This document shows positions 13,684 to 55,248 of a DNA stretch of 64,000 nucleotides, one piece after another. This stretch comes from an uncultured Alphaproteobacteria bacterium (GTDB lineage: Bacteria > Pseudomonadota > Alphaproteobacteria > HIMB59). A program made the translations under genes and the position numbers. How positions within the stretch are numbered: position 1 is the first letter of the stretch; every line of letters starts with the position of its first letter. Under the pieces are notes generated by a model. It had not been told where the DNA came from. It saw only the letters and a list, made by a program, of their open reading frames with translations, and made no database searches. Where the stretch lies: contig CACMUL010000002.1 of the NCBI GenBank assembly GCA_902616855.1, positions 124,001 to 188,000 of the forward strand, read 5' to 3'.

Positions 13684-15018
13684 TTAGATACCAAGTGTTT
13701 GTCGAACAAAAATAATTGGTTTTCTAAATAAGTAAAAAAATAGTTTCACCTCTTCACCGAAAATTTTTGCAGTTCCTCTGAGTCCAATTCTTGGAGAGTT
13801 TTTGGCCGGAAGAATTTCCGCTGTTACCCGGTAAGCTAGAGTGTTCTCACTGGTAAGTTCAGGCTCATAAGAAAATTTTGAGACTTTTGCGGGAATAACA
13901 TTTAGTGGATCAGAGTCTAAAAAAACATTTATTTCTGCGTCTTTTTTGACTGTTATTGCATCTTTTACTGGCATCATTATTTCGACAACAACATTCGATG
14001 GGTCAGCAATAACCATTATTGTCTCTCCGACCTTAAAAGGCTTACCTATGAGAAGTGATTTATCCTTGATAACTGCAATTCCATCAGCAGGAGAATTGAT
14101 CGTAGATTTGTCTAATAGATATTTCTGATAACTTAATGTTTGTTCTACAAGTTTAATTTTACTCTGAAGTTGACTGACCATCGCTTTGTCCTCTTTACTT
14201 TGAAAAGATGATTGTTTTGCCTGAAGTAATTCCGTTTCAATTACTTTTAATTCTTGGAAAGCTAAATCATAATCGTTTTGTAAATCTGTTTTTTCAAAAG
14301 AAATTAAAGTTGTTCCAATATTAACATCATCGTTATTTTGAATAAAAACTTCTTGTATGACGCCTTCAATAGGAGCATTTATAACATAGGGGTCTTTTGG
14401 GACAATTTCTGATTTACCAACCGTTGAAAGAGAAATTGGAATGAACATACTAGCAACAATTCCCGCTATAATTAAAAATTGAAACCATATATTTCTAAAA
14501 ACTTTTATGGAACTTTCAAAAAAATTATTTTCTTTGAGCGATCCCATCGCGTGTCCAATAGATGAACTCAAGTGTCTAATGTACTCGATATCTTGCTCTT
14601 CCCAATTTTCATCTCTTGCAAGTACCAATGCAGCTTGAGGGCCTTTTTGATTTGAAAAACAAGGAACCCATAAAAGTTTATCAGGAATTGGATTTTCACC
14701 TTTAGCAGGAATTAATGAATCTTTTTCGATTGTAAATGGATGGGTATCAGGAGATCCTTCTTTTAATTTTTCTCTTATTATTTTCTGAGCTAATATAGTC
14801 GTCGAGGAAGTTTGTTCTACAACTGCTATGTCAGAAATAGCATCAATCTTAAATTTATTTGGGTTCGCCCATTCTCCAAAAAAAGCAAAGACAAAAGGGG
14901 TTATGTTTCTTAATTCGTTTGTAACTGTATATCTGATTTCTACTAAAGATTTTGCTTCACGTAATTTTTTTTCAAAAGTGAAAATCCTTGCTAAACGATT
15001 TAATTGGTCTTGGCTCAA
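13684..15018 (-). CDS. HlyD-family adaptor with N-terminal GAF-like domain (TTG start)
   Basis: ~170-aa N-terminal GAF-like segment, single TM (NIWFQFLIIAGIVASMFIPISL), then HlyD region (VINAPIEGVIQEVFIQNNDDVNIGTTLISFEK...). Confidence 0.8.
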   Translation of the reverse strand: MSQDQLNRLARIFTFEKKLREAKSLVEIRYTVTNELRNITPFVFAFFGEWANPNKFKIDAISDIAVVEQTSSTTILAQKIIREKLKEGSPDTHPFTIEKDSLIPAKGENPIPDKLLWVPCFSNQKGPQAALVLARDENWEEQDIEYIRHLSSSIGHAMGSLKENNFFESSIKVFRNIWFQFLIIAGIVASMFIPISLSTVGKSEIVPKDPYVINAPIEGVIQEVFIQNNDDVNIGTTLISFEKTDLQNDYDLAFQELKVIETELLQAKQSSFQSKEDKAMVSQLQSKIKLVEQTLSYQKYLLDKSTINSPADGIAVIKDKSLLIGKPFKVGETIMVIADPSNVVVEIMMPVKDAITVKKDAEINVFLDSDPLNVIPAKVSKFSYEPELTSENTLAYRVTAEILPAKNSPRIGLRGTAKIFGEEVKLFFYLFRKPIIFVRQTLGI

Positions 15019-15761
15019 AATACAACTCGCCCACTCATTCCAGGCAGAAGGGCAGAGCTAGCGTTTGTAATAGTACCTTTTAGTTGAATTGTTTGGCTAA
15101 CGGCGTCAACATTTGCACCAATTCCACTTATAGAGGCATTGAATTCTTCCTGTATTTCATCAATATAAACAGTGATTGGATGGCCTATTGTTAGCCAAGA
15201 AACCCATTCACTAGATACTACCATTTCTAATTCAAGAACATCAGTCTTTATAATCTTCATTAATTCAACTTGAGGCTGTATCGACTCGAATGCGTTTACC
15301 ACAACTTCCTCAACCGCACCATCAAAAGGCGCTCTAATTTCACATCTCTCTACGTTTAGTTCAGCAATACGTAATTCCGATTTTGCCTTCTCATACTCTG
15401 ATATAGAGAGTTCAAGTTCATATTTTCCAATAGATCTCATCTGTAACATCTGTTCATCACTTTTTAGTTTGATCAATGCGCTATTTTCATTGGCTCTAAC
15501 TACATCTTTTTGTGCTTCATATAAACTACAATCGAATTGAATAAGTAAATCTCCTTTTTTAAATCTTTCCATTTCTTTAACAAAAACACTAGTTATACGA
15601 GCAGCCAATTCACTGGAAAGAACAGCTTCTTGAGATGCAACCACTAAAGCTCTTGATTCCCTAACTTCTGCTTTAGAGGAAACAGTAAATAGGATAGATA
15701 AAATTATTATTTTAACCAGAAACTTTAACAAGTTTATCTCCATAATTTTCATGACCCTCAT
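15015..15761 (-). CDS. Periplasmic adaptor (HlyD/RND-MFP-like); start probably an internal Met (about 15743-15752)
   Basis: Signal peptide; AELAARITSVFVKEMERFKKGDLLIQFDCSLYEAQ; CEIRAPFDGAVEEVVVNAFESIQPQVELMKI. Confidence 0.82.
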   Translation of the reverse strand: MRVMKIMEINLLKFLVKIIILSILFTVSSKAEVRESRALVVASQEAVLSSELAARITSVFVKEMERFKKGDLLIQFDCSLYEAQKDVVRANENSALIKLKSDEQMLQMRSIGKYELELSISEYEKAKSELRIAELNVERCEIRAPFDGAVEEVVVNAFESIQPQVELMKIIKTDVLELEMVVSSEWVSWLTIGHPITVYIDEIQEEFNASISGIGANVDAVSQTIQLKGTITNASSALLPGMSGRVVF

Positions 15762-18700
15762 ACTGCAAGTCTAATTGCTCTTGAAGAGTTGCAAATTTAA
15801 TAAGTTTTTCATCTGTTTCAAAATTTTGTGAATTTAAAACAATAGCTTCTTGAGAAATAACATCTTCAATTTCTCCTGGAATAGTTGGTATATCAATAAG
15901 ATTTGACTGATCGTCTGTGTTAGGTGTTTGATTGTCATTATTGTTTGAGTCATTTGGGTTAAGAGTGTCATTTAATATCGACCCATCTTCTAAATCATTT
16001 TGTGTATCAAGTAACATTTGTCCTTTTTCATCAACAGTAACTTCGGTTTTTAAAGCTGCACTTCGGTCTATGAAAGGCTCGAGGTCGCGTTTTAGGGCTT
16101 TGTCCTGGCTTACAGAGTTCCTATCCAGAGTAACATTAATTTCTCTTGTGCTATTATCATTATCGATTGCTATCACCTTGACATCGATTGAGTAAATATT
16201 TTGAGGAAACTGAACGATCGTCTGACCTGTTGATGGATCAACACGTATCCAGCTTGGAAGAGAGGAGCCATCCTCTAAAGTTCCTGTGTATTGTTTCACA
16301 TTAAGCCTATAATCATCTCCAATAGCAAATCCCAATAAAGTATTTTCATTTATTCCAGGCCTTCCACTTTGATCAATGTTTAAATCTTCAACAGCAACAT
16401 CGATTACCTTCATACCACCATTGAATGTGTATTCCTTGACTAGGGAGCCTAAATTTCCTCTCACCGCAAGATCTGCTATTTGGTCATTAACTTTAGGTGT
16501 TTCAAATGTTACTGTTTTATCAGCAATCGCCGCTTCTAAAGTTTTTTGCTTCACAATCAGTGGTGGGGTAGGTGCTTCACCAGGCTTTCCGGGCTTTCCA
16601 ATGATTATTGTGAATGTTTGTTGTGTAGATAGATTACCTCCGTCTGTTGCAGTTACTGTAAAAGTATAAGTGCCTTCAGGTAGACGACCTCTGATTCTTC
16701 CTGCATCGTTAACTGTCAGTCCTGATGGTAAACCGCCGTAACTATATGTTAGTTGCCCGTAAGTGCTGGTGCTTGGATCTGGGTCATCGAAGAAAAGTTT
16801 TGATTGAATGACAATTCTATTATTTTCAGCACCTCTAAACGTAGGAGCTGTTGAAGAAGTAGGGGCATCATTGATACCAGTAACTGTCACAGCTAATTGT
16901 GCTGTATCAGTACTTGTTCCATTTGAGATAGTATAAGTAAAATAATCTATAGCGGTAGTATCAGGAGTGAGAATGTCTGCTCCATCCTGGTCTGCAACAT
17001 ATGAATAAGTACCGTCTGAGTTGAGTGTTAGTGTTCCATAAGTACCTTTTAAAGAAGATCCCACGGTACCACTGGTACCAGTGCCAGCCTCCGTTCCAGT
17101 TCTTACAGAAGAAACTACAGCATCTGCGGTCTCGTCTGCATCAGTACCTTCATTTGTATCATTTGATAATAAACCTGAGGCTTTATTTCCAACACTCAGA
17201 GTATTACCATCTATAACACTACCCTCATCATTGTTTCCTACAACTTCATTATCTTGACCAGTAACTGTAATTGTAATTGTTGCAGTATCAGATGCTGTTC
17301 CATCGGATAAAGTATAAGTAAAGACATCTGTCTCAGTAGAACCATCGGCTATATTATCAGCTGCATCTTGATCAGCTGTGTAAGTGTAAGATCCATCTGC
17401 ACCAACAGTTAATGTTCCATAGGTACCAACTATTTGGGTGCCATTACTTTGATAAGTTGAGCTTGAGGCAACAGTACCTGAATTGCCATTTGAGTGAGAT
17501 ATGTTAGTTACTGTCAGTGAAGAGGAATCGTCAGCGTCAGTATCATCATTTAATAAATCATCCTGAACTGCAGTTTTTGTAATAGTTTTGTCCTCGAGCA
17601 CAGAGTCTGTATCATTTACCCCGACTGGATCATCGTTCACACCGGTTACTGTAATTGTCAATGTTGCTGTATCAGTAGCTGTTCCATCAGAAACTGTATA
17701 GGTGAAGACGTCAGTTTCTGTATCACCAGCATCTAAGGCATCAGTTGCTGTTTGATCTGCTGTGTATTTATATGCTCCATTAGATCCAATCACCAACGTA
17801 CCATAAGTGCCAGTCACAGATGTGCCGTTAAGATGTGTGGTACTAGATGAAACATTTGACTCTGATCCAGAGCCAGGTTGAATTTTTGTGACAGTTAAAT
17901 TTGCGGAGTCGTCATCGTCAGCGTCTGTATCATCATTTAAAACATCATCTTGAATAGCTAACTTAGTGACGCTCGAGTCCTCATCAACACTATCGGTGTC
18001 ATCAACAGCTACAGGGGTGTCATTGACACCTGTTACAGTGATTGTCAATGTTGCTGTATCAGTTGCTGTTCCATCAGAAACTGTATAGGTGAAGACGTCG
18101 TTTGCCGTATCACCTGCGTCTAAATCATCAGCTGCACTTTGATCAGCGACATAAGTATAAGATCCATTAGAATTAAGAGTTAGTGTTCCATAAGTACCTG
18201 TTAAAGCCGATCCAACAGTGCCGCTATTTCCTGTTCCGTCTTCAGCTCCAGTTCTAATTGCTGAGACTGTAAGAGATGCTGAGTCATCTGCATCTGTATC
18301 ATCATTTAAAACATCATCTTGCACTGCAGTTTTAGAGACAGTTGCATCTTCATTAACACTATCGGTATCATTAACAGCTACTGGAGCGTCATTCACACCA
18401 GTAATAGTGATTGTCAGCGTTGCTGTTGCAGTTGCTGAATTTTCATCGGTAAGAGTATAAGTAAAAACATCAGTTGCAGGATCATTAGCATCTAAATCAT
18501 CAGCTGCAGTTTGATCAGCTGTATAAGTATAAGATCCATTGGCTCCGATTGTTAAGGTACCATATGTACCAACTATTTGTGTACCACTACTATTATAAGT
18601 CGAACCCGAAGAAACAGATCCAGAGTTACCATTTGTATGCGATATATTAGTAACTGTTAGCGAAGCATCTGTATCAGCATCTGTATCGTCATTTAATACG

Positions 18701-21700
18701 TCGTCCTCGGATCCTGTTTTAGTAACAGTAGCATCTTCATTTACACTATCGGTATCGTCTACACCTGCAGGTGTATCGTTCTTTCCTGAAACTGTAATTG
18801 TTAATGTTGCCGTGTCAGTCGCTGTGCCATCCGTCAATGTGTAAGTAAATACATCATCATCACTATCTCCAACGTCTAAGGCATCAGCTGCTGTTTGATC
18901 AGCTGTGTATGTATAAGAACCATCTGCACCAATTGTTAAAGTACCATAAGTACCAACTATTTGTGTACCACTACTATTGTAAGTTGAACTTGAAGAGACT
19001 GATCCAGAATTACCATTTGTATGTGATATATTTGATACTGAAAGAGAAGCGCCTGTATCAGTGTCTGTATCGTCATTTAAAACATCATTTTGAGAACCTG
19101 TTTTAGTAACAGTTTCATTTTCGTTTACACTATCGGTGTCATCAACAGCTACAGGGGCGTCATTCACGCCTGTAACTGTAATTGTTAGTGTTGCGGTTGC
19201 GGTTGCAGAGCCATCAGTAATTCTATAGGTAAAAACATCATCCTCTTGAACCCCTGCAGCAAGTGCTTCAGCAGCTGTTTGATTTGCTGAGTATACATAT
19301 GAGCCGTCTGAACCAATAGTTAGTTGACCATAAGTTCCAGTAACAGTTGTGCCCGTGGTGGTTCCACTTGCACCATAAGTTGTGTTATTACTCACTGATG
19401 TGCCTGAGGCTGCACTACTATGTTGAATTTGATCAACTCTAATTGTATCTCCATCTGGATCACTATCATCATTTAAGACATCATTTTGAGCACCGGTTTT
19501 AGTTACAGATGCATTTTCATTCACGCTATCTGTATCGTTAACAGCTACTGGGCTTTGATTGCTTGCAGTGCCTCCAATAACAGTGAGTACGAGATCTGCC
19601 GTGGTTGTTGCAGTTCCATCGGATAAAGTGTATGTAAAAGTATCAGACACTGTAGCACCATCGCTTAATCCTGAAATATCAGAACTTGCTACATATGTGT
19701 AAGAACCATCTGCGCCAATTGTCAAAGTACCATAAGAGCCCGTTACAGATGTACCACTACTGTTATAGGAGCTCCCTGAAGAAACACTAGAATTATCACC
19801 ACCACTTTTTTTAATTTGAGTGATTCTAAGAGTGTCGTTTGTATCAAGATCACTATCTTTGTGTGAACTTGAAGTTGTATGGATGACATCACCTGAGTGT
19901 TCACCGTTTGCATCAAAACTGCCGTCAACATTTGCATTTGCACTATTTTGAACAGTTAGTGTAGATCCTTCATTGACGACGCCGACATCATTTTGTGCTG
20001 ATGGGTTATCGTTTGCCCCTAATACTTTAATAGTAATATTTGCTGTGTTATCTTGCGTGCCATCCGTAATGGTGTAAACAAAGACATCATTCTGACTCTC
20101 TCCAGCTGCAATGGCATCTGCAGCTGCCTGATCAGCAGCATAACTATACGATCCGTCTGCACCAATTGTTAAAGTACCATAAGTTCCAGTTACGGAGGTA
20201 CCGCTACTGTTATAAGAACTTCCTGGTTGAACAGAAGAATCTGTGCCAAGATTTTTTCTAATGAGCTTTACGCTTAAAGAAGCTGATGTATCTAAATCAG
20301 TATCTTTATGAGAGCTTGAGGAGGTGTCTAAAACATCACCTGAATTTTCTCCTGTTGTGTCAAGAGAACCAGAAATGTTGGAATTTGATCCGTTAGTAAC
20401 AGTCAAAGTTAGATCTTCGGTTATTGCACCTTCGTCATCTTGTGCGGTAGGAGTATCGTTTATACCAATAACTGTGATAGTGATTGTTGCAGTATCCGTT
20501 GCAGTCCCGTCAGTCAATGTGTAAGTAAATACGTCTGTGACTATATCGCCTGCATCAAGAGCGTCCGCATCAGAATCGTTAGCAACGTATTTATATGAGC
20601 CGTCTGAACCAATGGTTAGTTGACCATAAGTTCCGCTAACAGTTGTGCCTGCGGTAGTTCCAGAAGCACCGTAAGTAGTATTATTGCTTACAGCTGTGGA
20701 AGAGCCTGCCGAGCTATGTTGAATTGCTGAAACTCTCAAAGAAGCACTAGCGTCAGCATCAGAGTCCTTGTTTGAACTTGAGGTTGTATCTATTACATCG
20801 CCGGTATATTCGCCGGTGATGTCTACAAAACTATATGGACTTGAAAGTGAAAAAGATTGGATTCCGTTACTTGATGCTCGAGCTAAAAATGCTTTGGATC
20901 CATCATTATTAAATATAATATCAGTTGGGTTATCTGCATAGCTACTCACATCAAATGCACCATTAAATGTTGCTGTAGATAAGTTAAAACCGGTACTAAG
21001 ATCGTATTCTAAAATATCTTCATTTTGCTGACCTGTGATAAACAATTTTGTGCCTGTTGCGTTAAATGAAATTCCCCTTGGTGTAGCTTCTTTTGCACTA
21101 AAATCTAAACTTCTACTTGTGTATGAAATTGTTGAGGAATCAAAAGCAGTTGATAGAGAATATTCATAAACAGTATCATTAATATCTCCCAGTAAAAACA
21201 TTTTAGTTCCATCAGTATTAAAAGTAAAACCTCTAGGGTTGCCGTCTTGACCGCTAATTACAGTTGAAGTAGGTGTTGGTAATGAGGAAATATCATAGGC
21301 TGTAGATAAAGCAAATTCATGAATCTTTTTATTACTTCCTGAGCCATTGCTTATATACAGCTTCGTACCATCATTATTAAATCTTATACCACGTGGATTA
21401 CCTGCGTGAGAAGAAATGTCTGTTGTACTACTTTGAGAAGCAGTATTTATATCAAAAGCAGTTGTTAAAGTATGTACAGAGATATCTGGTGAATTGCTAT
21501 GATGAAGAACAAACATTTTGGTCCCATCATGATTAAATGCTACAGAACGAGTTGTATCTGTAGTTGCATATGGAGAACCAGTATCAAGAGATGCGGGTGT
21601 TACAGTATTATCATTACTGCTATTGATAACAGTCAAAGTTCCATCTTCATTAATGGTTCCTGTATCATTTTGTGCAACAGGAGTATCGTTCACTCCCGTT

Positions 21701-24700
21701 ACAGTTATTGTTAAAGTTGCGGTAGCTGTAAGTGAGCCATCAGTGGCTTCATATGTAAATTCATCGGTTTCTATATCACCTGCGTCTAAAGCATCAGCTG
21801 CTGTTTGATCAGCTGTGTATATATAAGATCCGTCAGCACCAATTTTTAAAGTACCGTAAGTTCCGGTAACTGTTGTAAAATTACTTAAATGTGTACTGCT
21901 TGATGTAACAGAAGTGTATCCGCTATCAGTGCTATGTTTGATTTTCGACACACTTAAAGTTGCTGAGTCATCCGCATCTGTATCGTCATTTAATACATCA
22001 TCTTGTGCTCCAGTTTTTGTCACTGAAGCGTCCTCGTTAACGGCATCAGTGTCATCGGTAGCAACAACCGGGTCGTTTATACCTGTGACAGTAATTGTTA
22101 TATTTGCAGTATCTGATCCGGTATTACCATCAGAAACTTCATAGACAAAAACATCTGTAACTACATCACCTGCATCCAAGTCGTCGGCCAAACTTTGGTC
22201 TGCTGTATATATATAAGATCCGTCAGCACCAATTTTTAAAGTACCGTAAGTTCCGGTAACTGTTGTAAAATTACTTAAATGTGTACTGCTTGATGTAACG
22301 TTAGAGAAATCTCCTCCGTTCTTTTTTATTTTTGAAACACTAAGAGTATCTCCTTCAGGATCAGTATCATTTATAAGAACATCTCCTGTGACGCCAGTCG
22401 TTCCATCAGTAACAGTCACTGAGTCATCTTCATCTACTGCATTGGTGTTATCGGTTGCACTTGGGTTCTCATTGTCTTTACCAATAAGTGTAATCGTCAG
22501 AGTTGCGGTATCTGTTGCGTCGTGTTCATCTGATAAAGTATAAGTAAAGGTGTCAGTTAGGTTAGAGCTACTGGCACTAAATCCTGATATGCTGTCCCTA
22601 GCAACATATTTATATGAACCGTCTGATCCAATGGTAAGAGTACCATAAGTTCCTGTTACTGAAGTGCCATTGCTGTCATAGGAGGTATTATTAGTAACAG
22701 ATGAAGATGAACCACCACTAGGTTGAATTGCTGAAATTCTTAATGTAGGAGATGCGTCAGGGTCACTGTCAACATGAGAGCTTGAACTGGTATTAATTAT
22801 GTCACCTGAATGTTCTCCTGTTGCATTAAATGTGCTACCAGAGTCATTGGTTTCGTTGGCATTTGCCCCATTTGTAACTGTCAATGTTTCACCCTCATCA
22901 ATCACACCCACATCATTCTGGGCACTCGGTGTATCGTTCACACCGGTTACTGTAATTGTTAATGTTGCAGTGTCAGTGTCTGTACCATCCGACAATGTGT
23001 AAGTAAAGACATCATCTATGCTGTCTCCAACGTCTAAAGCATCAGCTGCTGTTTGATCAGCTATGTATTTATAAGAGCCATCTGCACCAATTGTCAAAGT
23101 ACCGTAGGTACCAACTATTTGTGTACCGCTACTTTCATAAGTCGAGCTTGAAGAAACAGATCCAGAGTTACCATTTGTATGCGCTATATTTGATACACTT
23201 AGGCTCGCGCTATCATCTGGATCAGAGTCATCGTTCATTACATCGTCTTGCGAAGCTGTTTTTATAACAGTAGCATCTTCCGCAACTGTATCTGTATCAT
23301 TAACAGCAACAGGGGCATCATTAATACCTGTAACTGTAATAGTTAAGTTGGCAGTGTCTGTGAGTGCACCATCTGAAATAGTATAAACGAAAACATCTGT
23401 TACTTGATCACCCGCGTCCAGGTCATCTGCTGCATCTTGATCAGCGACGTAAGTATAAGAACCGTCAGCTCCAATAGTTAAAGTTCCGTATGTTCCAGTG
23501 ACTGATGTGCCACTACTATTATATGTACTTCCTGCGGAAACATTTGAGTCAGTGCCACTGTTATGGTTAATTTTTGTTACAGTAATTGTATCTCCATCAG
23601 GGTCACTGTCATCGTTAAGCACATCATTCTGAGATCCTGTTTTGGTAACCGTAGCGTCCTCATTAACGCTGTCAGTATCATTTACTGCATCAGGTGCTTG
23701 ATTTCCTGTTCTAGTAAATACTCTTATGATGTCACCATGCTGTGCACCATTATTAAATCCCACATAAAGTGTATTTGAGTCAGTATCGACACCAAACCAG
23801 TCACTTTTATGGCCTGAAGGTTTACTAGAATCTGTAACACTTGTGCTCCAAGTCCACTTTAATTTCTCTGTACTCCAAGCATTTTGGCCGCCATTACCGT
23901 GTTGGCTTATTGTGTGATAAGTCGCTCCACTTTTATCAACTCCCGAATATGCAATGATATTATTCATGTTGAACCAAACACCTAGTATTTCATTTTCAAA
24001 AGTAACTGACCTCACAGTATTTCTTCCTGAGTTTTCTGTAGCATAAACATAATATGAATTCATATTGATTGATGAGGCATCAACAGTAGTGGTGCCTGAT
24101 GTTATGTCAGGGCCTGACGTTTGGACACCACTATTATTTTCCTCAAATCCATTAGATGTACTTGTGGTCTTGTAAAAAGTAAATGAGCCTGAGTTTATAT
24201 TTTCTCTCTCTAGGGCAATAACAAAGGGTTTGTTGCCATCAGTGTGATTAGAAGCAGATGCTGCGTGTCCACCATCATTCGTACCCGCTCTTAAATTAGT
24301 TCCCGTATTTTCTACAAAACCATCTAATGATGAAATTCCATTTTGAAGAAGAGAGTGTTTGTAATCAACAACACTAATTCCATTAGTTTCAACGATACCG
24401 TATTTTTTTTCTAAGTTCCAATCACCACCCTTACCTGTAATATCATCAGAGGCCGCGATATCTGCTTGAGTGATATTTCCAATTTGTTGAATAAGTAACT
24501 TTCCCTGATCACCTTGAGCCAAGTTACAACCATAGAATAATAAGTCACCGTCTTGAGTTAACGAGTTACCAATTGATTGAAGTGTAGTGCTAAAAGAATT
24601 AATCGTTTCCGAATTTAATATTGAATTTCCAAGTACTACCTGACCAGTACTTGCGTGTCCTATTATATGTACTGCACCTATGTCACTTTGATCTTGCAAA

Positions 24701-25023
24701 ATACTCTGCATTTTTGCAAAACCGTTTTCGTTGGAGTCAATTAAATAGATAGATTTTGTGTCATCGATAGAGTTAATGATTGTTTGATAATCATCAACGC
24801 CCTTGTCTATGAAAACAATTTCTTTTCTCGAGTCATTATTATTGTGTGTAATCGCTTTTAAATTTGTTGAAAGGTCAGTTTCATTGAGAGAGTTGTTTTG
24901 AATTTGGTCTTCGACAGCTTCAATGGCTTCACTAGCAGCATAAACAGCAGCACCATCGAACATGATTCTCGGTTCCAGCATTTGAATGCTAAAATGTGGA
25001 TAAGTTTTCTGTTTATCAGCCAC
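15712..25023 (-). CDS. Giant (3103 aa) surface protein: LEPR-type N-terminal motif, DUF4347-like domain, 15 VCBS repeats with one beta-propeller-like insertion, Ig/cadherin-like C-terminal modules (GTG start)
   Basis: MLEPRIMFDGAA; VHIIGHASTGQ...LLFYGCNLAQG; repeated VNDTDSVNEDATVTKT..VLNDDTDAD...GTYGTLTIGADGSYTYTADQ...DVFTYTLSDGTATDTATLTITVTGVNDAP; RBS GAGGAGAG upstream. Confidence 0.93.
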   Translation of the reverse strand: MADKQKTYPHFSIQMLEPRIMFDGAAVYAASEAIEAVEDQIQNNSLNETDLSTNLKAITHNNNDSRKEIVFIDKGVDDYQTIINSIDDTKSIYLIDSNENGFAKMQSILQDQSDIGAVHIIGHASTGQVVLGNSILNSETINSFSTTLQSIGNSLTQDGDLLFYGCNLAQGDQGKLLIQQIGNITQADIAASDDITGKGGDWNLEKKYGIVETNGISVVDYKHSLLQNGISSLDGFVENTGTNLRAGTNDGGHAASASNHTDGNKPFVIALERENINSGSFTFYKTTSTSNGFEENNSGVQTSGPDITSGTTTVDASSINMNSYYVYATENSGRNTVRSVTFENEILGVWFNMNNIIAYSGVDKSGATYHTISQHGNGGQNAWSTEKLKWTWSTSVTDSSKPSGHKSDWFGVDTDSNTLYVGFNNGAQHGDIIRVFTRTGNQAPDAVNDTDSVNEDATVTKTGSQNDVLNDDSDPDGDTITVTKINHNSGTDSNVSAGSTYNSSGTSVTGTYGTLTIGADGSYTYVADQDAADDLDAGDQVTDVFVYTISDGALTDTANLTITVTGINDAPVAVNDTDTVAEDATVIKTASQDDVMNDDSDPDDSASLSVSNIAHTNGNSGSVSSSSTYESSGTQIVGTYGTLTIGADGSYKYIADQTAADALDVGDSIDDVFTYTLSDGTDTDTATLTITVTGVNDTPSAQNDVGVIDEGETLTVTNGANANETNDSGSTFNATGEHSGDIINTSSSSHVDSDPDASPTLRISAIQPSGGSSSSVTNNTSYDSNGTSVTGTYGTLTIGSDGSYKYVARDSISGFSASSSNLTDTFTYTLSDEHDATDTATLTITLIGKDNENPSATDNTNAVDEDDSVTVTDGTTGVTGDVLINDTDPEGDTLSVSKIKKNGGDFSNVTSSSTHLSNFTTVTGTYGTLKIGADGSYIYTADQSLADDLDAGDVVTDVFVYEVSDGNTGSDTANITITVTGINDPVVATDDTDAVNEDASVTKTGAQDDVLNDDTDADDSATLSVSKIKHSTDSGYTSVTSSSTHLSNFTTVTGTYGTLKIGADGSYIYTADQTAADALDAGDIETDEFTYEATDGSLTATATLTITVTGVNDTPVAQNDTGTINEDGTLTVINSSNDNTVTPASLDTGSPYATTDTTRSVAFNHDGTKMFVLHHSNSPDISVHTLTTAFDINTASQSSTTDISSHAGNPRGIRFNNDGTKLYISNGSGSNKKIHEFALSTAYDISSLPTPTSTVISGQDGNPRGFTFNTDGTKMFLLGDINDTVYEYSLSTAFDSSTISYTSRSLDFSAKEATPRGISFNATGTKLFITGQQNEDILEYDLSTGFNLSTATFNGAFDVSSYADNPTDIIFNNDGSKAFLARASSNGIQSFSLSSPYSFVDITGEYTGDVIDTTSSSNKDSDADASASLRVSAIQHSSAGSSTAVSNNTTYGASGTTAGTTVSGTYGQLTIGSDGSYKYVANDSDADALDAGDIVTDVFTYTLTDGTATDTATITITVIGINDTPTAQDDEGAITEDLTLTVTNGSNSNISGSLDTTGENSGDVLDTSSSSHKDTDLDTSASLSVKLIRKNLGTDSSVQPGSSYNSSGTSVTGTYGTLTIGADGSYSYAADQAAADAIAAGESQNDVFVYTITDGTQDNTANITIKVLGANDNPSAQNDVGVVNEGSTLTVQNSANANVDGSFDANGEHSGDVIHTTSSSHKDSDLDTNDTLRITQIKKSGGDNSSVSSGSSYNSSGTSVTGSYGTLTIGADGSYTYVASSDISGLSDGATVSDTFTYTLSDGTATTTADLVLTVIGGTASNQSPVAVNDTDSVNENASVTKTGAQNDVLNDDSDPDGDTIRVDQIQHSSAASGTSVSNNTTYGASGTTTGTTVTGTYGQLTIGSDGSYVYSANQTAAEALAAGVQEDDVFTYRITDGSATATATLTITVTGVNDAPVAVDDTDSVNENETVTKTGSQNDVLNDDTDTDTGASLSVSNISHTNGNSGSVSSSSTYNSSGTQIVGTYGTLTIGADGSYTYTADQTAADALDVGDSDDDVFTYTLTDGTATDTATLTITVSGKNDTPAGVDDTDSVNEDATVTKTGSEDDVLNDDTDADTDASLTVTNISHTNGNSGSVSSGSTYNSSGTQIVGTYGTLTIGANGSYTYTADQTAADDLDANDPATDVFTYTLTDENSATATATLTITITGVNDAPVAVNDTDSVNEDATVSKTAVQDDVLNDDTDADDSASLTVSAIRTGAEDGTGNSGTVGSALTGTYGTLTLNSNGSYTYVADQSAADDLDAGDTANDVFTYTVSDGTATDTATLTITVTGVNDTPVAVDDTDSVDEDSSVTKLAIQDDVLNDDTDADDDDSANLTVTKIQPGSGSESNVSSSTTHLNGTSVTGTYGTLVIGSNGAYKYTADQTATDALDAGDTETDVFTYTVSDGTATDTATLTITVTGVNDDPVGVNDTDSVLEDKTITKTAVQDDLLNDDTDADDSSSLTVTNISHSNGNSGTVASSSTYQSNGTQIVGTYGTLTVGADGSYTYTADQDAADNIADGSTETDVFTYTLSDGTASDTATITITVTGQDNEVVGNNDEGSVIDGNTLSVGNKASGLLSNDTNEGTDADETADAVVSSVRTGTEAGTGTSGTVGSSLKGTYGTLTLNSDGTYSYVADQDGADILTPDTTAIDYFTYTISNGTSTDTAQLAVTVTGINDAPTSSTAPTFRGAENNRIVIQSKLFFDDPDPSTSTYGQLTYSYGGLPSGLTVNDAGRIRGRLPEGTYTFTVTATDGGNLSTQQTFTIIIGKPGKPGEAPTPPLIVKQKTLEAAIADKTVTFETPKVNDQIADLAVRGNLGSLVKEYTFNGGMKVIDVAVEDLNIDQSGRPGINENTLLGFAIGDDYRLNVKQYTGTLEDGSSLPSWIRVDPSTGQTIVQFPQNIYSIDVKVIAIDNDNSTREINVTLDRNSVSQDKALKRDLEPFIDRSAALKTEVTVDEKGQMLLDTQNDLEDGSILNDTLNPNDSNNNDNQTPNTDDQSNLIDIPTIPGEIEDVISQEAIVLNSQNFETDEKLIKFATLQEQLDLQYEGHENYGDKLVKVSG
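16870..23705 (-). repeat. 15 tandem VCBS-type coding repeats (about 120-150 aa each, one expanded)
   Basis: Manual parsing of the translated ORF into repeats ending ITVTGVNDxP/equivalent. Confidence 0.85.
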
Positions 25024-48960: not shown

Positions 48961-50025
48961 TTGAAATTATTATTTAATTTTCTAAAATATTTAAGAGACT
49001 ATATTCAAATTCTATCTAAAAAAGAATTTGATATTATTTTTTTTTCTGAGGGTAAAGATCATTTAGTTTTTTTAGAACCAATTTTAAAATATTTAGATCA
49101 AAATTTTAAATTTAGTATCCTTTATATAACTTTAGACCCTAAAGATGTCACATTACGAAAAGAGCCTAATATTGATTATTATTATTTCCCCTCTATCTCA
49201 TATGCATATTCTTTGCTTGGAAATATTAAAAGTAAATTTCTCATAACCACAATTAATGATATAGGAAATGCTGGATATCTAAAAAAAACTGAAAATATAA
49301 AATATTACATTTATACTTATCATTCATTAATAAGCACACTTAGCGGCTACAGTTATAATTCACTAAAAAATTTTGACATAATTTTCTGTGCAGCAAAATA
49401 TCAAGTGACTGAAATTAGATTTTTAGAAAAAAAATATAGTCAAAATAGAAAGAAACTTTTCCCATTAGGTTATAGTAAAATTAACAATTTAAGAAAATAT
49501 GAGAATCAATCTGATAATAATATGATACTACTCGCATTCACTTGGGGTAGTAATTCATTTTTTTCAAATCATAAATTAGATAAATTAATAGAAATTCTTT
49601 TGAATGATGGATATCAGGTTTGTATTCGGCCTCATCCAGAAACTTTTAAACAAGACTCAAAACGAATAAGAAATTTAATGAGTCTTTTTAAGCATGATAA
49701 GTTAATATTGGATAACCAAGGCGATGACTATTATTTAAGAAAAGCAAAAATATTGATTACTGATTGGTCAGGTATCTTTTTTGATTTTTATTTTGGTTTA
49801 GGCAAAAAAACAATATTTATTAAATCTAATAGGAAAAACAACAATTTAGAATTTGAAAGCTACAATATTAAAACGCATGAAGAATTAATCAGAAACAAAA
49901 TATCTGATGAAGTACAAGTTGAAGATGTTTTGAAAGCTTTGAATAAGGATTTAAAATATATAGATGATGACTTTTTATATAAGAACTTCGAAAGAAACTT
50001 ATACAAATTTTTTAGCAAAATTTAA
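48961..50025 (+). CDS. CDP-glycerol glycerophosphotransferase-like (TagB/TagF-like) protein (TTG start)
   Basis: VCIRPHPETF, ILITDWSGIFFDFYFGLGKKTIFI. Confidence 0.7.
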   Translation: MKLLFNFLKYLRDYIQILSKKEFDIIFFSEGKDHLVFLEPILKYLDQNFKFSILYITLDPKDVTLRKEPNIDYYYFPSISYAYSLLGNIKSKFLITTINDIGNAGYLKKTENIKYYIYTYHSLISTLSGYSYNSLKNFDIIFCAAKYQVTEIRFLEKKYSQNRKKLFPLGYSKINNLRKYENQSDNNMILLAFTWGSNSFFSNHKLDKLIEILLNDGYQVCIRPHPETFKQDSKRIRNLMSLFKHDKLILDNQGDDYYLRKAKILITDWSGIFFDFYFGLGKKTIFIKSNRKNNNLEFESYNIKTHEELIRNKISDEVQVEDVLKALNKDLKYIDDDFLYKNFERNLYKFFSKI

Positions 50026-50027
50026 AA

Positions 50028-51664
50028 ATGAATAAAAATTTATTGTTATTTAACTTTTTAATTTTATATATTTTTATATTACTACCCTCATTTTATTTTA
50101 TTAATAACTATGAATTTTTTTCTTTTTTTCTTTTATTCTAACAAACATTTTCTTTTATTTTAAATATTTTCGACAATCTAATAAAATTCTTTTAGTTTTA
50201 ATATTTACAATTTGTTTTATAACAATTGGTAACTTCTTTATTGATTATACTGATAATATAATTGAGCTATCTATTACGAAATCTGAAGCTAATTTAGTAA
50301 ATGTTATACTAGGTTTAATCTTATCTTTTATTTTTGCAATCGTATTAATGAAATATAAACCATTAATAAATTTTTTTCTTTTAGCTATTTTTTTAACATT
50401 CATTTATCAAAACCTTTTTTTTATTTTTTTTAAAGATATTAATAATGATGTAACTAGACAATTAGATAAACAATCAATTTTTGCAGCATCAGAACAAGAT
50501 AATCTTTTTATTATTAGCTTTGACGGTGTATCAGGAAGATTAATGAATGAGTTAATTAAACATGACGCAAAATTTTTTGAAAACTTTACTTTTTTTCCTA
50601 ATGTTATTTCACAAGGTTCGCATACTCAAAGTAGCATGATTGGCGAAATATACGGTTCTAGAAATTATAAAGAATACGGCGAAACAATTGATGATATGAT
50701 TATGAATTTAGACAAAAATCCGACTCTCAAAAATAATTTAATTCATAACTCATATCAAAATCATTTAATTGGTAATTATTATTCTGATATTCTTAAAGAT
50801 AAATTTGATACTGTTAACTTTTTTGAACAATATAAAATTGAGTCATCGATCAAATATTATTTAGACTTATTATCAATAATTCAATGTAAAATTTCATTTT
50901 GTATTGATAGAAGAATGATTATTAGCAATCTTTACCATTATATTGCTTTAAAAACCAATTTAGTTAATTATGCTGTCATCAGTAATGCGGATCTTTGGCA
51001 AAGAATTTATGATGATTTTATCAAAAATTTAAAGTCTGATAAAAATATTAAAAATAAAATATTCACAATTCACTTTAATCAAACTCATAGCCCTCCAAGT
51101 TTAAATGAAAAATGTATGACAGTTGGCTATAAAGAGTTTTTAAAAAATTATGATGGCAAAGGTGCTCAACTCAATGCTAAATGTACTTACAACAATATTA
51201 AAAAATTCATTTTGAAATTAAAGGAAATAAATATTTTTGATAATTCTAACATTTTAATTAAATCTGATCATGGATATTCTGCCGAACATTTTAATAAATA
51301 TCCCTATAATTTAGGAATTAATGGAAATATAAATATCGGCATAGATAGGTTTAATCCTTTCATACTTGTTAAGAAAAAAAATAATGTAAATAAAAAGTTT
51401 GAAATAATATCTGAACAAGTTCTTATAAATGATATTGCAAAATCACTATGTCTATTAAAAAATAAAGAAAAAAACTGCGAAGTTTATGGTGGAACTAATC
51501 TTTTTGATTTTGATAAGAATTTTGATGAGTCATTTTTTGTTTATCTTCCAAAGAATAAAAATAGTAATCATGATTTAAAAAATTCAGTAGAAATTGAATT
51601 CAACTCTCGAAATATAAATTTTAAAAATTGGTTAATTATTAATAATTTTATTAAAGTTGATTAG
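50028..51664 (+). other. Membrane-anchored sulfatase/alkaline-phosphatase-superfamily protein whose N-terminal TM region is in a different frame (ATG 50028 frame stops at 50139-50141 region; catalytic ORF 50348..51664, open in frame from 50114)
   Basis: Frame 50028: MNKNLLLFNFLILYIFILLPSFYFINNYEFFSFFLLF*; frame of 50348 opens at 50114: IFFFFSFILTNIFFYFKYFRQSNKILLVLIFTICFITIGNFF...; catalytic motifs FDGVSGRLMNELI, SHTQSSMIGEIYG, IKSDHGYSAEHF. Confidence 0.65.
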
Positions 51665-52360
51665 ATCTTTATAATTATCAATCTCATACCATTCTCCAGA
51701 GTATTTTAAAGGTTTAAGTAAGAAATCTTTTTTATTTAAAAAATTTAGAAAAGATGTCATATCGATATTTTTTTGACAATTTTTATATTTATCTTTCAAT
51801 TTAGTTATAAAATTTTTTGGTATATAAACTAAACCCATGTATTGGTATTTGACATTGTTTAATTCTTTAATTTTCGTTCCAATTTCAACAATTTTATGGC
51901 CTTGTATAATAAGATTTTCAGCATCTTCTTGAATATTCTGTCCTCTTTGTTCCCATACTTTCAACCAATTGTAAAGGACAGGTAAAGTAATATTTTTAGC
52001 TTTTAGTTTTTTTATTCTACTAATAAGTATTTTGTTGAAAACAATATCAGAATATATCACCAATGTATTTTGCTCTTTCATATTACATAACCCATTAATC
52101 ATTGAGTGAACAATTCCAGTACTATTAAATTCTTTATTATGAATAAAATTAATATTTTTTTTATCTTTTAAGTGATTAATTATTTTATCTTTATTAAAAC
52201 CAACAGAAATATATATTTTTTTTAGATTATAATACTCCAAATCTAAAATTAATTTCTTAATAATTGTTAAATCTTTTTTTATTTCAATAAGACATTTATT
52301 GAAACCAATTTTGCTATAAATTCTTGAACTTTTTCCTGCAGCCAATATTAGTATTTGCAT
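51632..52360 (-). CDS. LicC-like nucleotidyltransferase (candidate CTP:phosphoglutamine cytidylyltransferase, Cj1416-like)
   Basis: MQILILAAGKSSRI; FNKCLIEI; IHNKEFNSTGIVHSM; VIYSDIVF. Confidence 0.75.
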   Translation of the reverse strand: MQILILAAGKSSRIYSKIGFNKCLIEIKKDLTIIKKLILDLEYYNLKKIYISVGFNKDKIINHLKDKKNINFIHNKEFNSTGIVHSMINGLCNMKEQNTLVIYSDIVFNKILISRIKKLKAKNITLPVLYNWLKVWEQRGQNIQEDAENLIIQGHKIVEIGTKIKELNNVKYQYMGLVYIPKNFITKLKDKYKNCQKNIDMTSFLNFLNKKDFLLKPLKYSGEWYEIDNYKDLINFNKIINN

Positions 52361-52954
52361 TTAAATTTTAAAAATATTTCTAAAGTACTGATTCACAAAT
52401 ACTTGATCTTTATTTTTTCTTTCTGGATGAAACATCATACAATAAATCGGAAAATTAGTAATTTTAGAAATTTCAATTGTATCATCGTTTGAAACGAAAA
52501 ATTTTTCAAAATTCTTTTTTAAATTTTTTTTATAAAGTCCATAGTGATGATAACTATTTATGCTATACACTTTTTTACGTAAATCATAAATCTTATGACT
52601 TTTTTTTATATGTCCAGTAATTTTTTCTATTTTTAAACCATAATAATCATAAATAAATTGAGCACCTTTACACACTCCCAAAATTGGTTTATTTAATTTT
52701 AGAAATTTTTTGAATAAAAATTTTTCTATGTGCTCTCTATCATTATCTATTTTTAATCGTGAAAATTTTGTTAAATTATTTCCGCCTGGTATAATTAATC
52801 CGTCAAATCTATTAAAATTTTTGATACTTGAATTGTATAAATAAATACTAAAACCAATTTCTTTGGAGTATTTTATCCAGTTATGCTCAATTGAATGACA
52901 AATATTATCGTTTGTATCTTTAATTAACTTAGGAGATATTAGTAACTGTATCAT
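52361..52954 (-). CDS. Class-I glutamine amidotransferase-like hydrolase (candidate gamma-glutamyl-CDP-amidate hydrolase, Cj1417-like)
   Basis: LIIPGGNNL; ILGVCKGAQFI nucleophile elbow; MMFHPERK catalytic His. Confidence 0.78.
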   Translation of the reverse strand: MIQLLISPKLIKDTNDNICHSIEHNWIKYSKEIGFSIYLYNSSIKNFNRFDGLIIPGGNNLTKFSRLKIDNDREHIEKFLFKKFLKLNKPILGVCKGAQFIYDYYGLKIEKITGHIKKSHKIYDLRKKVYSINSYHHYGLYKKNLKKNFEKFFVSNDDTIEISKITNFPIYCMMFHPERKNKDQVFVNQYFRNIFKI

Positions 52955-55248
52955 AAAAATCTGTATAAATTATCATTTGGATTTATCATTAATTTATTTT
53001 GACCGGCGATATTATTAAAAGCCTCTTCTCCTATTCCAATTATAGAAGTAATATTTAATTCTGAACATCTTATTGCCATGTGAGAATTTGGACCACCGTT
53101 TTTAGTTACTAAACCTAAGATATTACTTGTAAAAATAAAATCATAACCAGGATCTGCATTTTCAATTAATATTATTTTATTAGTAAAATTCTGTTTTTTG
53201 GAAGAATCATAAAGCATTAAAGTTCCTATAATATTCCTATTTCCAAAAAATTCTCCATCTCTGCTAGACCTATAGAAAAAATTAATTTCTTTTTCATTTT
53301 TTATAAAGTCTGGCAGAATAATTTTTTTTGCCTCAGTATTTTCACTTATATGTTTGTTTATCTCATTTTTAAAAGTTTCCCTTAACCTAGTTGTCTCAAG
53401 AGATGAGTAAGCCAACAGAACTGTATTATAATCTATGTGTTGAATATCTTTTTTATTCATTTTCATTTCCTTAAATAATTTTTTTAGTTCTATAAAAATT
53501 AAATTTATTCCCTTAGTAAATTCAAATTTAGCTTTTTCTCTCATTTCCGTTGACTTTATACAAAAGTTAATAAAATCTTCTGATTTAATTTTTAAATCAT
53601 AGTTTTTGAAAAATTTATTAATTTTCTTAATTTGTAAATTTGTAAATTTATATTTCTTTTTTTTTATTAGAGATATTTTATTTGATTTGAAGTAATTTTT
53701 GAATCCTTCTTCATATGATAAAAAGCTTATGTCATATGTTGAGGGTCTAAGATGTCCATACTCAGCTATAAATTTTTCTTTAGTGATTTTTCCTAGTTTA
53801 TAATAGACATAGTCATTATGTATATTTGTAGTAATATTTTTAAAACTTGAGTAAAAGCTTTTTATAGATTTTTGACTAATAATATTTTTATCTACTAATA
53901 AATCGCAAACATATTTTGCTACAAAAGCGCATCTTGCCAGTCCTGCAAAAGGAAGGGTGCCGAATTGTTTTATATAATAATTTAAATAGAATATTTTTGT
54001 AATAGGTTTATAATTTGAATTTTTTACATAATCGATCTTCTTTATTAAAATTTTAATTTTATTTATTTCTAAATTACAAATTTCTTTTAAAATTAAATTT
54101 TCGAATATAGAATTAGTATTTATTTTGTATTGAAGAAATTCTTTTTTGGTTAGGATTTTTTTTAAATCACCATCATAATCAGCAATGAATGATGGTAGAA
54201 GATCAAATTCTATCTTATCATGCTTATCAGGATTTTTGTATAATTTGTCTAAATTATAATTAATTAATTTTTGACTTATTTTTGAATTTAATTTTTTAGG
54301 TAAAAAGGAATTCAAATCAGTCCTTATATCTATATAAGGGATTCCATAAACATCAAATAATAATGAATTAGGTCTGACATCTTTGTAACCATAATTTTTT
54401 CTTTGTTTAGCCCAAATTTCATTTGTAATTAATTCTTTGTACATTGTTATTGCAAGTTTTGATGGCCTCTCTCCCAGAATTTCAACTGGATTCCAATCTG
54501 CCATATTGCTCAAAAAAGTTTTTTTTCCTATGTTAGAGTAATTTGAATTTAAAATAGCTTTTATCTTTTTTTGAATGTTTACTATTGTCGATTTTTTTGG
54601 ATAGCCAACTTCTTTTTTCATTTTTGGGAGTCGACGTATTTGTAACAAATATAATTTATTTTTTTTTATACAGTATTCAATATCAAGATGTTTACATTTA
54701 AATTTGGTTTCGAGGTTTTTTGTTACTTTTATAATTTTATTAAATTCTCTTGGAATTTTCGAACTATTTCTCGCAACATATAAAGCTTTAACTGTTGGAT
54801 TATATTTTCCAGAAGTAACAAGATCTGTATGATGTGACTTATCATAATTAATCACATAATATTCTCTATTAAGTTTCAGTTCTTTAGAAAAAATTACACC
54901 ACTTTGTTGAACATTTGTAATTAATTTTTGAATAATAAAAATATCTTTGTCTTTTTTAAAGTGAGAAATGACTTTTTTTATACCTATCATTAGATTTTCA
55001 TTAGTAATATTCTTAATGATTAATGATAAATATTTACCTGCATTTACTCGGGTGCCATCTTCATCATAAGTTGACGATCTGATAATAATAGAATTATTAA
55101 AATTACTATTAATTTTGCTAATAACAGAATTAGGGTCTAAAAAAAAATTTTTTTTTGTAAAAAAAATAAATTTTGGAACTTCAAAATCTTCATCCTTTAC
55201 TTTTTTTAAATTTAATAAGTTTAGGGATTTAATGTTATCTAAATTCAT
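52951..55248 (-). CDS. PEP-synthase-like ATP-grasp/phosphohistidine phosphotransferase (candidate L-glutamine kinase, Cj1418-like)
   Basis: IIIRSSTYDEDGTRVNAGKYLS; LDIEYCIKKNKLYLLQIRRLP; C-terminal VTKNGGPNSHMAIRCSELNITSIIGIG phosphohistidine domain. Confidence 0.78.
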   Translation of the reverse strand: MNLDNIKSLNLLNLKKVKDEDFEVPKFIFFTKKNFFLDPNSVISKINSNFNNSIIIRSSTYDEDGTRVNAGKYLSLIIKNITNENLMIGIKKVISHFKKDKDIFIIQKLITNVQQSGVIFSKELKLNREYYVINYDKSHHTDLVTSGKYNPTVKALYVARNSSKIPREFNKIIKVTKNLETKFKCKHLDIEYCIKKNKLYLLQIRRLPKMKKEVGYPKKSTIVNIQKKIKAILNSNYSNIGKKTFLSNMADWNPVEILGERPSKLAITMYKELITNEIWAKQRKNYGYKDVRPNSLLFDVYGIPYIDIRTDLNSFLPKKLNSKISQKLINYNLDKLYKNPDKHDKIEFDLLPSFIADYDGDLKKILTKKEFLQYKINTNSIFENLILKEICNLEINKIKILIKKIDYVKNSNYKPITKIFYLNYYIKQFGTLPFAGLARCAFVAKYVCDLLVDKNIISQKSIKSFYSSFKNITTNIHNDYVYYKLGKITKEKFIAEYGHLRPSTYDISFLSYEEGFKNYFKSNKISLIKKKKYKFTNLQIKKINKFFKNYDLKIKSEDFINFCIKSTEMREKAKFEFTKGINLIFIELKKLFKEMKMNKKDIQHIDYNTVLLAYSSLETTRLRETFKNEINKHISENTEAKKIILPDFIKNEKEINFFYRSSRDGEFFGNRNIIGTLMLYDSSKKQNFTNKIILIENADPGYDFIFTSNILGLVTKNGGPNSHMAIRCSELNITSIIGIGEEAFNNIAGQNKLMINPNDNLYRFL

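Follow-up and report, generated by a model that had tools for sequence, protein, structure and literature searches.

How might a marine alphaproteobacterium use an activated phosphoramidate when the enzymes that complete its transfer in Campylobacter jejuni are not found beside the genes that would make it? The question is raised by a 64,000-nucleotide stretch from an uncultured member of the HIMB59 lineage (assembly GCA_902616855.1, contig CACMUL010000002.1, positions 124,001 to 188,000; hereafter the window), in which an initial annotation had recognised three tightly packed minus-strand genes as relatives of Cj1418, Cj1417 and Cj1416. The coordinates and lengths of these open reading frames (ORFs; Table 1) are reproduced here, and the sequence likewise contains the described 4 bp overlap of the first two genes (52951-52954) and the abutment of the last two at 52361/52360. 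We refer to their products as K (kinase), G (class-I glutamine amidotransferase (GATase) type hydrolase) and N (nucleotidyltransferase), to those of two further genes nearby as T (TagF-like) and F (sulfatase-fold), and to the Cj1415-like kinase of other loci as A; loci and genomes used in comparisons carry L- and G-numbers. We propose that the cassette probably makes cytidine 5'-diphosphoramidate (CDP-amidate) and puts its phosphoramidate group on a surface glycan, and that T and F appear to be part of the same cassette as K-G-N.

K is supported as a member of the L-glutamine kinase family, and kinase activity is predicted from its sequence. It contains the Pfam domains PPDK_N and PEP-utilizers and matches the model NF004508, which carries the name 'hypothetical protein' in NCBIfam, over its full length with 638.5 bits (cut-off 501); the equivalent protein of our C. 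jejuni-type reference locus, L109, also matches at full length, with 1173 bits, and is 35% identical to K over 764 aa. The predicted phosphohistidine, H723, corresponds to H737 of the L109 protein and is invariant in a 99-sequence family alignment, in which the ATP-grasp residues R57, E63, D64, Q203 and R205, all present in K, are conserved. Models of phosphoenolpyruvate (PEP) synthase, pyruvate phosphate dikinase and rifampicin phosphotransferase (RPH) give single-domain matches to K, mainly to the phosphohistidine domain, with scores that stay far under their cut-offs. These family models answer the question of kinship better than a phylogeny of the kinase with PEP synthases and RPH, which is weakly informative because of very long outgroup branches (3-9 changes per column, with one outgroup ORF perhaps in the wrong frame). 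The description of K as a PEP-synthase-like ATP-grasp and phosphohistidine protein of the Cj1418 family is thus upheld.

The assignments of G and N rest on similar grounds, and we regard G as gamma-glutamyl-CDP-amidate-hydrolase-like and N as a Cj1416-like cytidylyltransferase, with the activities of both supported as predictions. The best curated match of G is NF045546, the gamma-glutamyl-CDP-amidate hydrolase model (E 2.4e-29, 102.8 bits), and its class-I GATase triad C95/H176/E178 is conserved, as expected of the Cj1417 family to which it had been assigned; it is 32% identical to the L109 protein over 130 aa. N shares 28% identity with its L109 counterpart over 249 aa and retains 19/19 signature residues of the operon nucleotidyltransferase family, all identical to L109, which together with its operon position bears out a Cj1416-type enzyme. 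Three residues kept in N (W136, D146 and Q173) differ in the nucleotidyltransferase of a relative lacking the kinase (L150). Across all three families the conserved residues are retained in the window proteins almost without exception.

Gene order provides further support. A kinase scan using one genome per species yielded 163 loci with K relatives, of which 80 were kept; gene order was counted over 100 usable loci centred on a kinase relative. G follows K directly in 82/100 loci and N is the second gene after K in 74/100, so that the K-G-N order is no chance arrangement. K relatives occur in many marine Pelagibacteraceae and also in Campylobacterota, Firmicutes, Desulfovibrio, Pseudomonas, Aeromonas, Bacteroidota, Planctomycetes and archaea, and the order is kept across Alpha- and Gammaproteobacteria, Campylobacterota, Firmicutes, Desulfovibrio, Bacteroidota, Planctomycetes and archaea. 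L109 was picked from Campylobacterales loci with proteins above the NF045546 cut-off; it shows the same families in the same transcription order, as had been claimed for C. jejuni, within the arrangement heptose genes, DUF2972 transferase, two methyltransferases, K, G, N, an APS-kinase-like gene, KpsC and KpsS, which presumably corresponds to the gene order of C. jejuni NCTC 11168. Orthologues of cj1416-1418 have been reported within Campylobacter, in 13/30 strains (PMC3907429); in the literature searched no paper on phosphoramidate in SAR11 or marine bacteria turned up, although such papers may exist. Given the family match of K, the retention of H723 and the conserved gene order, it is very likely that K, N and G together yield CDP-amidate.

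K loci with variant architectures were also noted. In seven loci (L008, L009, L045, L048, L073, L074, L089) K is about 1000 aa long with a nucleotidyltransferase-looking N-terminal extension of about 220 aa, and in L158 (11351-14233, minus strand) it carries an N-terminal CTP_transf-like domain (PF01467). The kinase of L157 (G916 contig C32, 9050-11319) is split across two overlapping frames beside G, N and T, a frameshift or an assembly error. L020 has K, G and N of 776, 207 and 239 aa at one end and, inverted near the other end, N of 239, G of 207 and a K of 180 aa; this second, partial copy on the same short contig is a possible artefact of single-cell-genome assembly.

If CDP-amidate is made, what follows it? 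At K loci, clustering of neighbours finds A in 56, methyltransferases in 34, T in 18 and a CysQ-like gene in 12. A direct count over 101 loci (L124 and L010, both counted, represent one contig region) gives A only in 54, T only in 19, both in 3 and neither in 25 (Fisher p 5e-6, kinship ignored), and T largely replaces the Cj1415-type kinase at K loci. The same contrast is seen genome-wide, a stand-alone A being found in at most 2/17 T-type genomes, both partial or weak, against 5/5 A-type genomes (Fisher p 8e-4). The initial annotation had noted no Cj1415-like kinase, methyltransferase or dedicated transferase adjacent to the three genes. The first point is borne out, as genome-wide searches of the window genome (G000, a 76%-complete draft) and of a sister genome of the same genus (G019, 94% complete) recovered no stand-alone Cj1415-like kinase and only bifunctional CysN/C; its suggestion of a variant pathway holds for that reason. 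Family hidden Markov models (HMMs) for the Cj1419/1420-like methyltransferases and the Cj1421/1422-like transferases found no match among 20 window ORFs between 42 and 63 kb. T, which has F as its partner, is a candidate for the transferase that had been missed.

Two other arrangements recur beside K-G-N in this survey. An A-V-U order is seen in L046, L056, L071, L081, L083, L119 and L122, and partly in L025 and L051, where V is a protein of about 200 aa with no Pfam match and U is weakly formyltransferase-like (PF00551, E 5e-5); this is a third tailoring context, possibly with another modification of the phosphorus-nitrogen (P-N) donor. The CysQ/inositol-monophosphatase-like gene (about 282 aa), named so by sequence reading, is found in L028, L030, L057, L111, L113-L117, L121, L125 and L126, mostly in loci with the Cj1415-like kinase, and its product could recycle the 3'-phospho-CMP left by a 3'-phospho-CDP-amidate donor.

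T is a weak match to PF04464 (E 2.5e-6, 27.2 bits, gathering score 22.1), yet it matches an HMM of the PF04464-like family found beside K-G-N in 18 other loci with E 5.8e-71. A search of the PDB with the T profile gave no sequence match; by contrast, a fold search with its predicted structure (mean predicted local distance difference test score, pLDDT, 89.6) gave TagF with CDP-glycerol (3l7l) as the best hit at E 2.8e-10, followed by Actinobacillus capsule multienzymes. Invariant residues of the family are H121, R223, H225, S270, K292, N295 and E307, with H121 at what we take to be the position of the HGT-motif histidine of TagF. The family accompanies K-G-N in about 20 loci, most often directly 3' of N, and T follows N immediately and in the same direction in L013, L015-L019, L022, L073, L074 and L089. 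In a class sample of 386 genomes T is present in 13, K in 18 and both in 4; the co-occurrence extends beyond the window to three genomes (Fisher p 0.012 without the window), two of which have the genes within about 4 kb of each other. We think it reasonably likely that T acts as a direct CDP-amidate transferase.

T is not confined to this context, and specificity for CDP-amidate was rejected as an explanation when the family was found beside phosphonate genes. Its neighbours in L149, which has no K, are a PEP mutase fused to a cytidylyltransferase, phosphonopyruvate decarboxylase and a phosphonate-type iron alcohol dehydrogenase; in L150, again with no K, they are an N-like nucleotidyltransferase, an iron alcohol dehydrogenase and an F-like protein. 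The phosphonate permease gene PhnE adjoins T in L151 (no K) and in L156, whose genome has K on another contig, and other T genes without K lie beside small CTP_transf-like proteins. Pairs of T and an F-like protein occur in K-less genomes of the window's order (L132, L133 and L134), with a TagD-like cytidylyltransferase adjoining in L133. On the T tree the amidate-context proteins are intermixed with those of other contexts, with at least 5 switches. Because T occurs in K-less genomes beside PEP-mutase/cytidylyltransferase, phosphonate-uptake or TagD-like genes, it looks like a general CMP-X transferase, and we infer that it releases CMP as the transferase of a system with exchangeable head groups. 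The terminal phosphorus bears NH2 in CDP-amidate and CH3 in CMP-methylphosphonate, the sole difference between the two, and CDP-amidate and the CMP-alkylphosphonates may be regarded as near-isosteric; on this chemical argument donor switching would be easy.

The second gene of the pair encodes a membrane-anchored protein that matches PF00884 (E 2e-8, 34.4 bits, threshold 25). D59, H247, D307 and H308 are invariant, D59, D307 and H308 being the metal ligands, and T93, aligned with Thr or Ser in relatives, is the candidate nucleophile. The model of F has an N-terminal membrane helix and, at low confidence, is nearest to YejM/PbgA, LtaS/LtaP and EptA. An F-like protein lies near K in 14/19 T-only loci as against 1/54 A-only loci, a figure that is optimistic since T-type loci supplied part of the sequences for the sulfatase HMM. 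On balance we lean slightly towards F belonging to the same pathway.

The glycan island in which the cassette sits is variable, and close relatives lack the cassette at this place. In nine same-genus genomes the island is bordered by a purH-HAD-LysE block and a trx-like/Lon-N block, and the content between them is variable: G007, whose purH is 93% identical, keeps the tetratricopeptide repeat (TPR)/glycosyltransferase genes and has no T-F-N-G-K at the island, G020 has about 1 kb between the flanking blocks, and the glycan-island neighbours of Table 1 are present in some genomes and not in others. The G+C content is 21-23% over 49-55 kb, compared with 25-34% over 36-50 kb. Within the window T precedes F on the plus strand, F and N converge with a 33 bp overlap, and T is located 1.6 kb past the end of N with F as the sole ORF in between. 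G019 has N-G-K and F-T at another genomic site and in another order. Of 149 relatives, 4 have K and 5 have T; within the genus, either gene is found only in the window genome and G019, each of which has both. That the five genes occupy two different places in a single genus speaks for a mobile functional unit. A phage origin was considered and dropped, as no kinase relative was found in viral contigs; promoter and terminator scans gave no more matches than in shuffled sequence.

Table 1. Features of the cassette and its neighbours in the window
Feature	Coordinates	Strand	Basis
K: L-glutamine kinase family protein (Cj1418-like), 765 aa	52951..55248	-	NF004508, alignment to L109
G: class-I GATase-fold hydrolase (Cj1417-like), 197 aa	52361..52954	-	NF045546 best curated match, triad C95/H176/E178
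N: nucleotidyltransferase (Cj1416-like CTP:phosphoglutamine cytidylyltransferase), 242 aa	51632..52360	-	PF12804 (NTP_transf_3)
T: TagF-like GT-B fold phosphotransferase, 354 aa; candidate CDP-amidate:glycan phosphoramidate transferase	48961..50025	+	PF04464
F: membrane-anchored sulfatase/alkaline-phosphatase-fold protein, 438 aa	50348..51664	+	PF00884
Glycan-island neighbours: TPR/glycosyltransferase (GT)-like, GT8-like, GT-like, FkbM methyltransferase (-), polysaccharide lyase PF14099	43381..48288	.	Pfam; TPR ORF by sequence reading

Elsewhere in the window, at 11581-25023 on the minus strand, a 3103-aa repeat-rich adhesin-like ORF is followed by three membrane-fusion/exporter-like ORFs (15015-15761, 13684-15018 and 11581-13683), which together with it resemble a type I secreted surface protein system.

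The pathway that we envisage draws its chemistry from PMC11800397, PMC6429109 and general knowledge. The C. jejuni enzymes Cj1415-Cj1418 use glutamine, ATP and CTP to produce CDP-phosphoramidate 3'-phosphate, and deleting Cj1421 and Cj1422 removes the phosphoramidate group (PMC11800397). In the window, after the step assigned to K, N would couple phosphoglutamine to CMP from CTP to give gamma-glutamyl-CDP-amidate, which G would hydrolyse to glutamate and CDP-amidate. T may then move the phosphoramidyl group from CDP-amidate directly to a hydroxyl group on a glycan or its precursor with release of CMP, in which case neither a Cj1415-type 3'-kinase nor a Cj1421/1422-type transferase is needed. 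More speculatively, F might act in the periplasm to relocate or process the decorated group beyond the cytoplasmic membrane. The expected product is a phosphoramidate ester without a methyl group, unless a methyltransferase encoded elsewhere modifies it. A surface glycan is the presumed acceptor because the island has glycosyltransferase-like, FkbM and polysaccharide-lyase genes; the substrates given here for T and F are putative.

Several observations weigh against this proposal. T-F and N-G-K lie on opposite strands and are therefore not one transcript, and the window genome is an incomplete draft. G fails the equivalog cut-off of NF045546 (102.8 against 250 bits), as do the G proteins of other non-Campylobacter K-G-N loci (L041 189, L048 181 and L029 146 bits), while that of L109 reaches 328 bits. 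T is also found without K; the window T forms a long divergent branch with at most 31% identity, and T proteins from amidate contexts do not form a single clade, which leaves room for a different donor of the window T. The model of F has a pLDDT of only 55.5. T changes 8 times on the K tree (at least 6 forced), that is, there are few independent switches, and a phylogeny-aware independent-pairs test of A against T is not significant, with too few informative pairs. For this last reason, and with 3 loci having both genes and 25 neither, we rejected a strict rule of A or T exclusion.

The alternative that survives best, which we nevertheless consider unlikely, is that T-F is an independent module with a phosphonate or phospho-alcohol donor, merely co-located with K-G-N in the glycan island. 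The T-F pairs of K-less genomes, the phosphonate or TagD-like genes adjoining T elsewhere, and the divergence and opposite strand of the window T all speak for this. However, the neighbourhood of the window T showed no phosphonate or TagD-like gene, in about ten loci T is the next gene 3' of N and runs the same way, and the five genes are together again in G019 in another order and place. Somewhat less probable is that K-G-N make CDP-amidate for a Campylobacter-type branch, whose Cj1415-like kinase and Cj1421-like transferase would be encoded in the quarter of the genome that is not assembled, and that T-F serve some other purpose. The draft state of the genome would permit this, and 54/101 K loci do carry a Cj1415-like gene without T, but the more complete G019 has all five genes with CysN/C only, and a stand-alone candidate is as scarce among T-type genomes as described above.

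It is more doubtful still that K-G-N act on another amide or phosphorus compound and that their product is not CDP-amidate. The window proteins share only 28-35% identity with the Campylobacter-type enzymes, and G is under its model's cut-off; against this, residues conserved over 89-99 family members, the Campylobacter clade included, are retained, and a GATase-type gamma-glutamyl hydrolase suits glutamine as the amide donor. A chance pairing, with K an ordinary PEP synthase or a rifamycin phosphotransferase and N a nucleotidyltransferase of the usual sugar or choline type, can be set aside. The PPDK_N, PEP-utilizers and NTP_transf folds are held in common with such enzymes, but the family searches already contradict this reading, NF004508 being matched at full length above its cut-off and the other models far below theirs. 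The family-specific central region of K (SNMADWNP, YGHLRP) and the conserved gene order speak against it as well.

The C. jejuni O-methyl phosphoramidate pathway (Cj1415-Cj1418, Cj1421/Cj1422) shares with the window K, G, N and their order, together with the predicted CDP-amidate and a glycan context, whereas the window lacks a Cj1415-like 3'-kinase and, nearby, the Cj1419/1420-like methyltransferases and a Cj1421/1422-like (DUF2972) transferase, and instead has T and F. Such a T-type transferase beside K-G-N points to a second way of placing phosphoramidate on the cell surface. With the TagF/TarF-type CDP-glycerol glycerophosphotransferases (PF04464) T has its fold in common, notwithstanding the weak sequence match, the single 354-aa domain, the lack of teichoic-acid genes and a predicted donor that is CDP-amidate. 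The LtaS/EptA/YejM membrane sulfatase-fold family, which includes the nearest solved structures to F, likewise has Thr or Ser at the nucleophile position, but F is only 12-18% identical to these proteins and its model is of low confidence. Phosphonate surface-tailoring clusters of the Ppm/PntC type (PMC6697681) and marine phosphonoglycan clusters (PMC8931226) resemble the cassette in cytidylyl activation of a head group. Some phosphonate clusters carry a T-family transferase and part of them also sulfatase-fold proteins (L149, L150, L156); in contrast, no PEP mutase or other C-P gene was seen at the window, where K-G-N would supply a P-N head group.

Taken at its broadest, this would be an undescribed route of phosphoramidate decoration, common in marine plankton, in which a TagF-like T from an interchangeable CMP-X module uses CDP-amidate directly in place of the Cj1415/Cj1421 branch, with P-N and P-C head groups exchangeable on one system; we advance this wider reading tentatively, at somewhat less than even chances. 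If it is true, P-N surface chemistry would be no Campylobacter peculiarity and would instead belong to the accessory traits of abundant marine bacteria, many Pelagibacterales among them; for phosphonylated surfaces, Acker et al. propose that they lower mortality (PMC8931226). There would also be a second transfer route that needs no 3'-phosphorylation of the nucleotide. In C. jejuni the 3'-phospho CDP-phosphoramidate (compound 5) has been called only the likely donor (PMC11800397); T-type loci predict that CDP-amidate itself can serve as a transfer donor, and so bear on which nucleotide is the true one.

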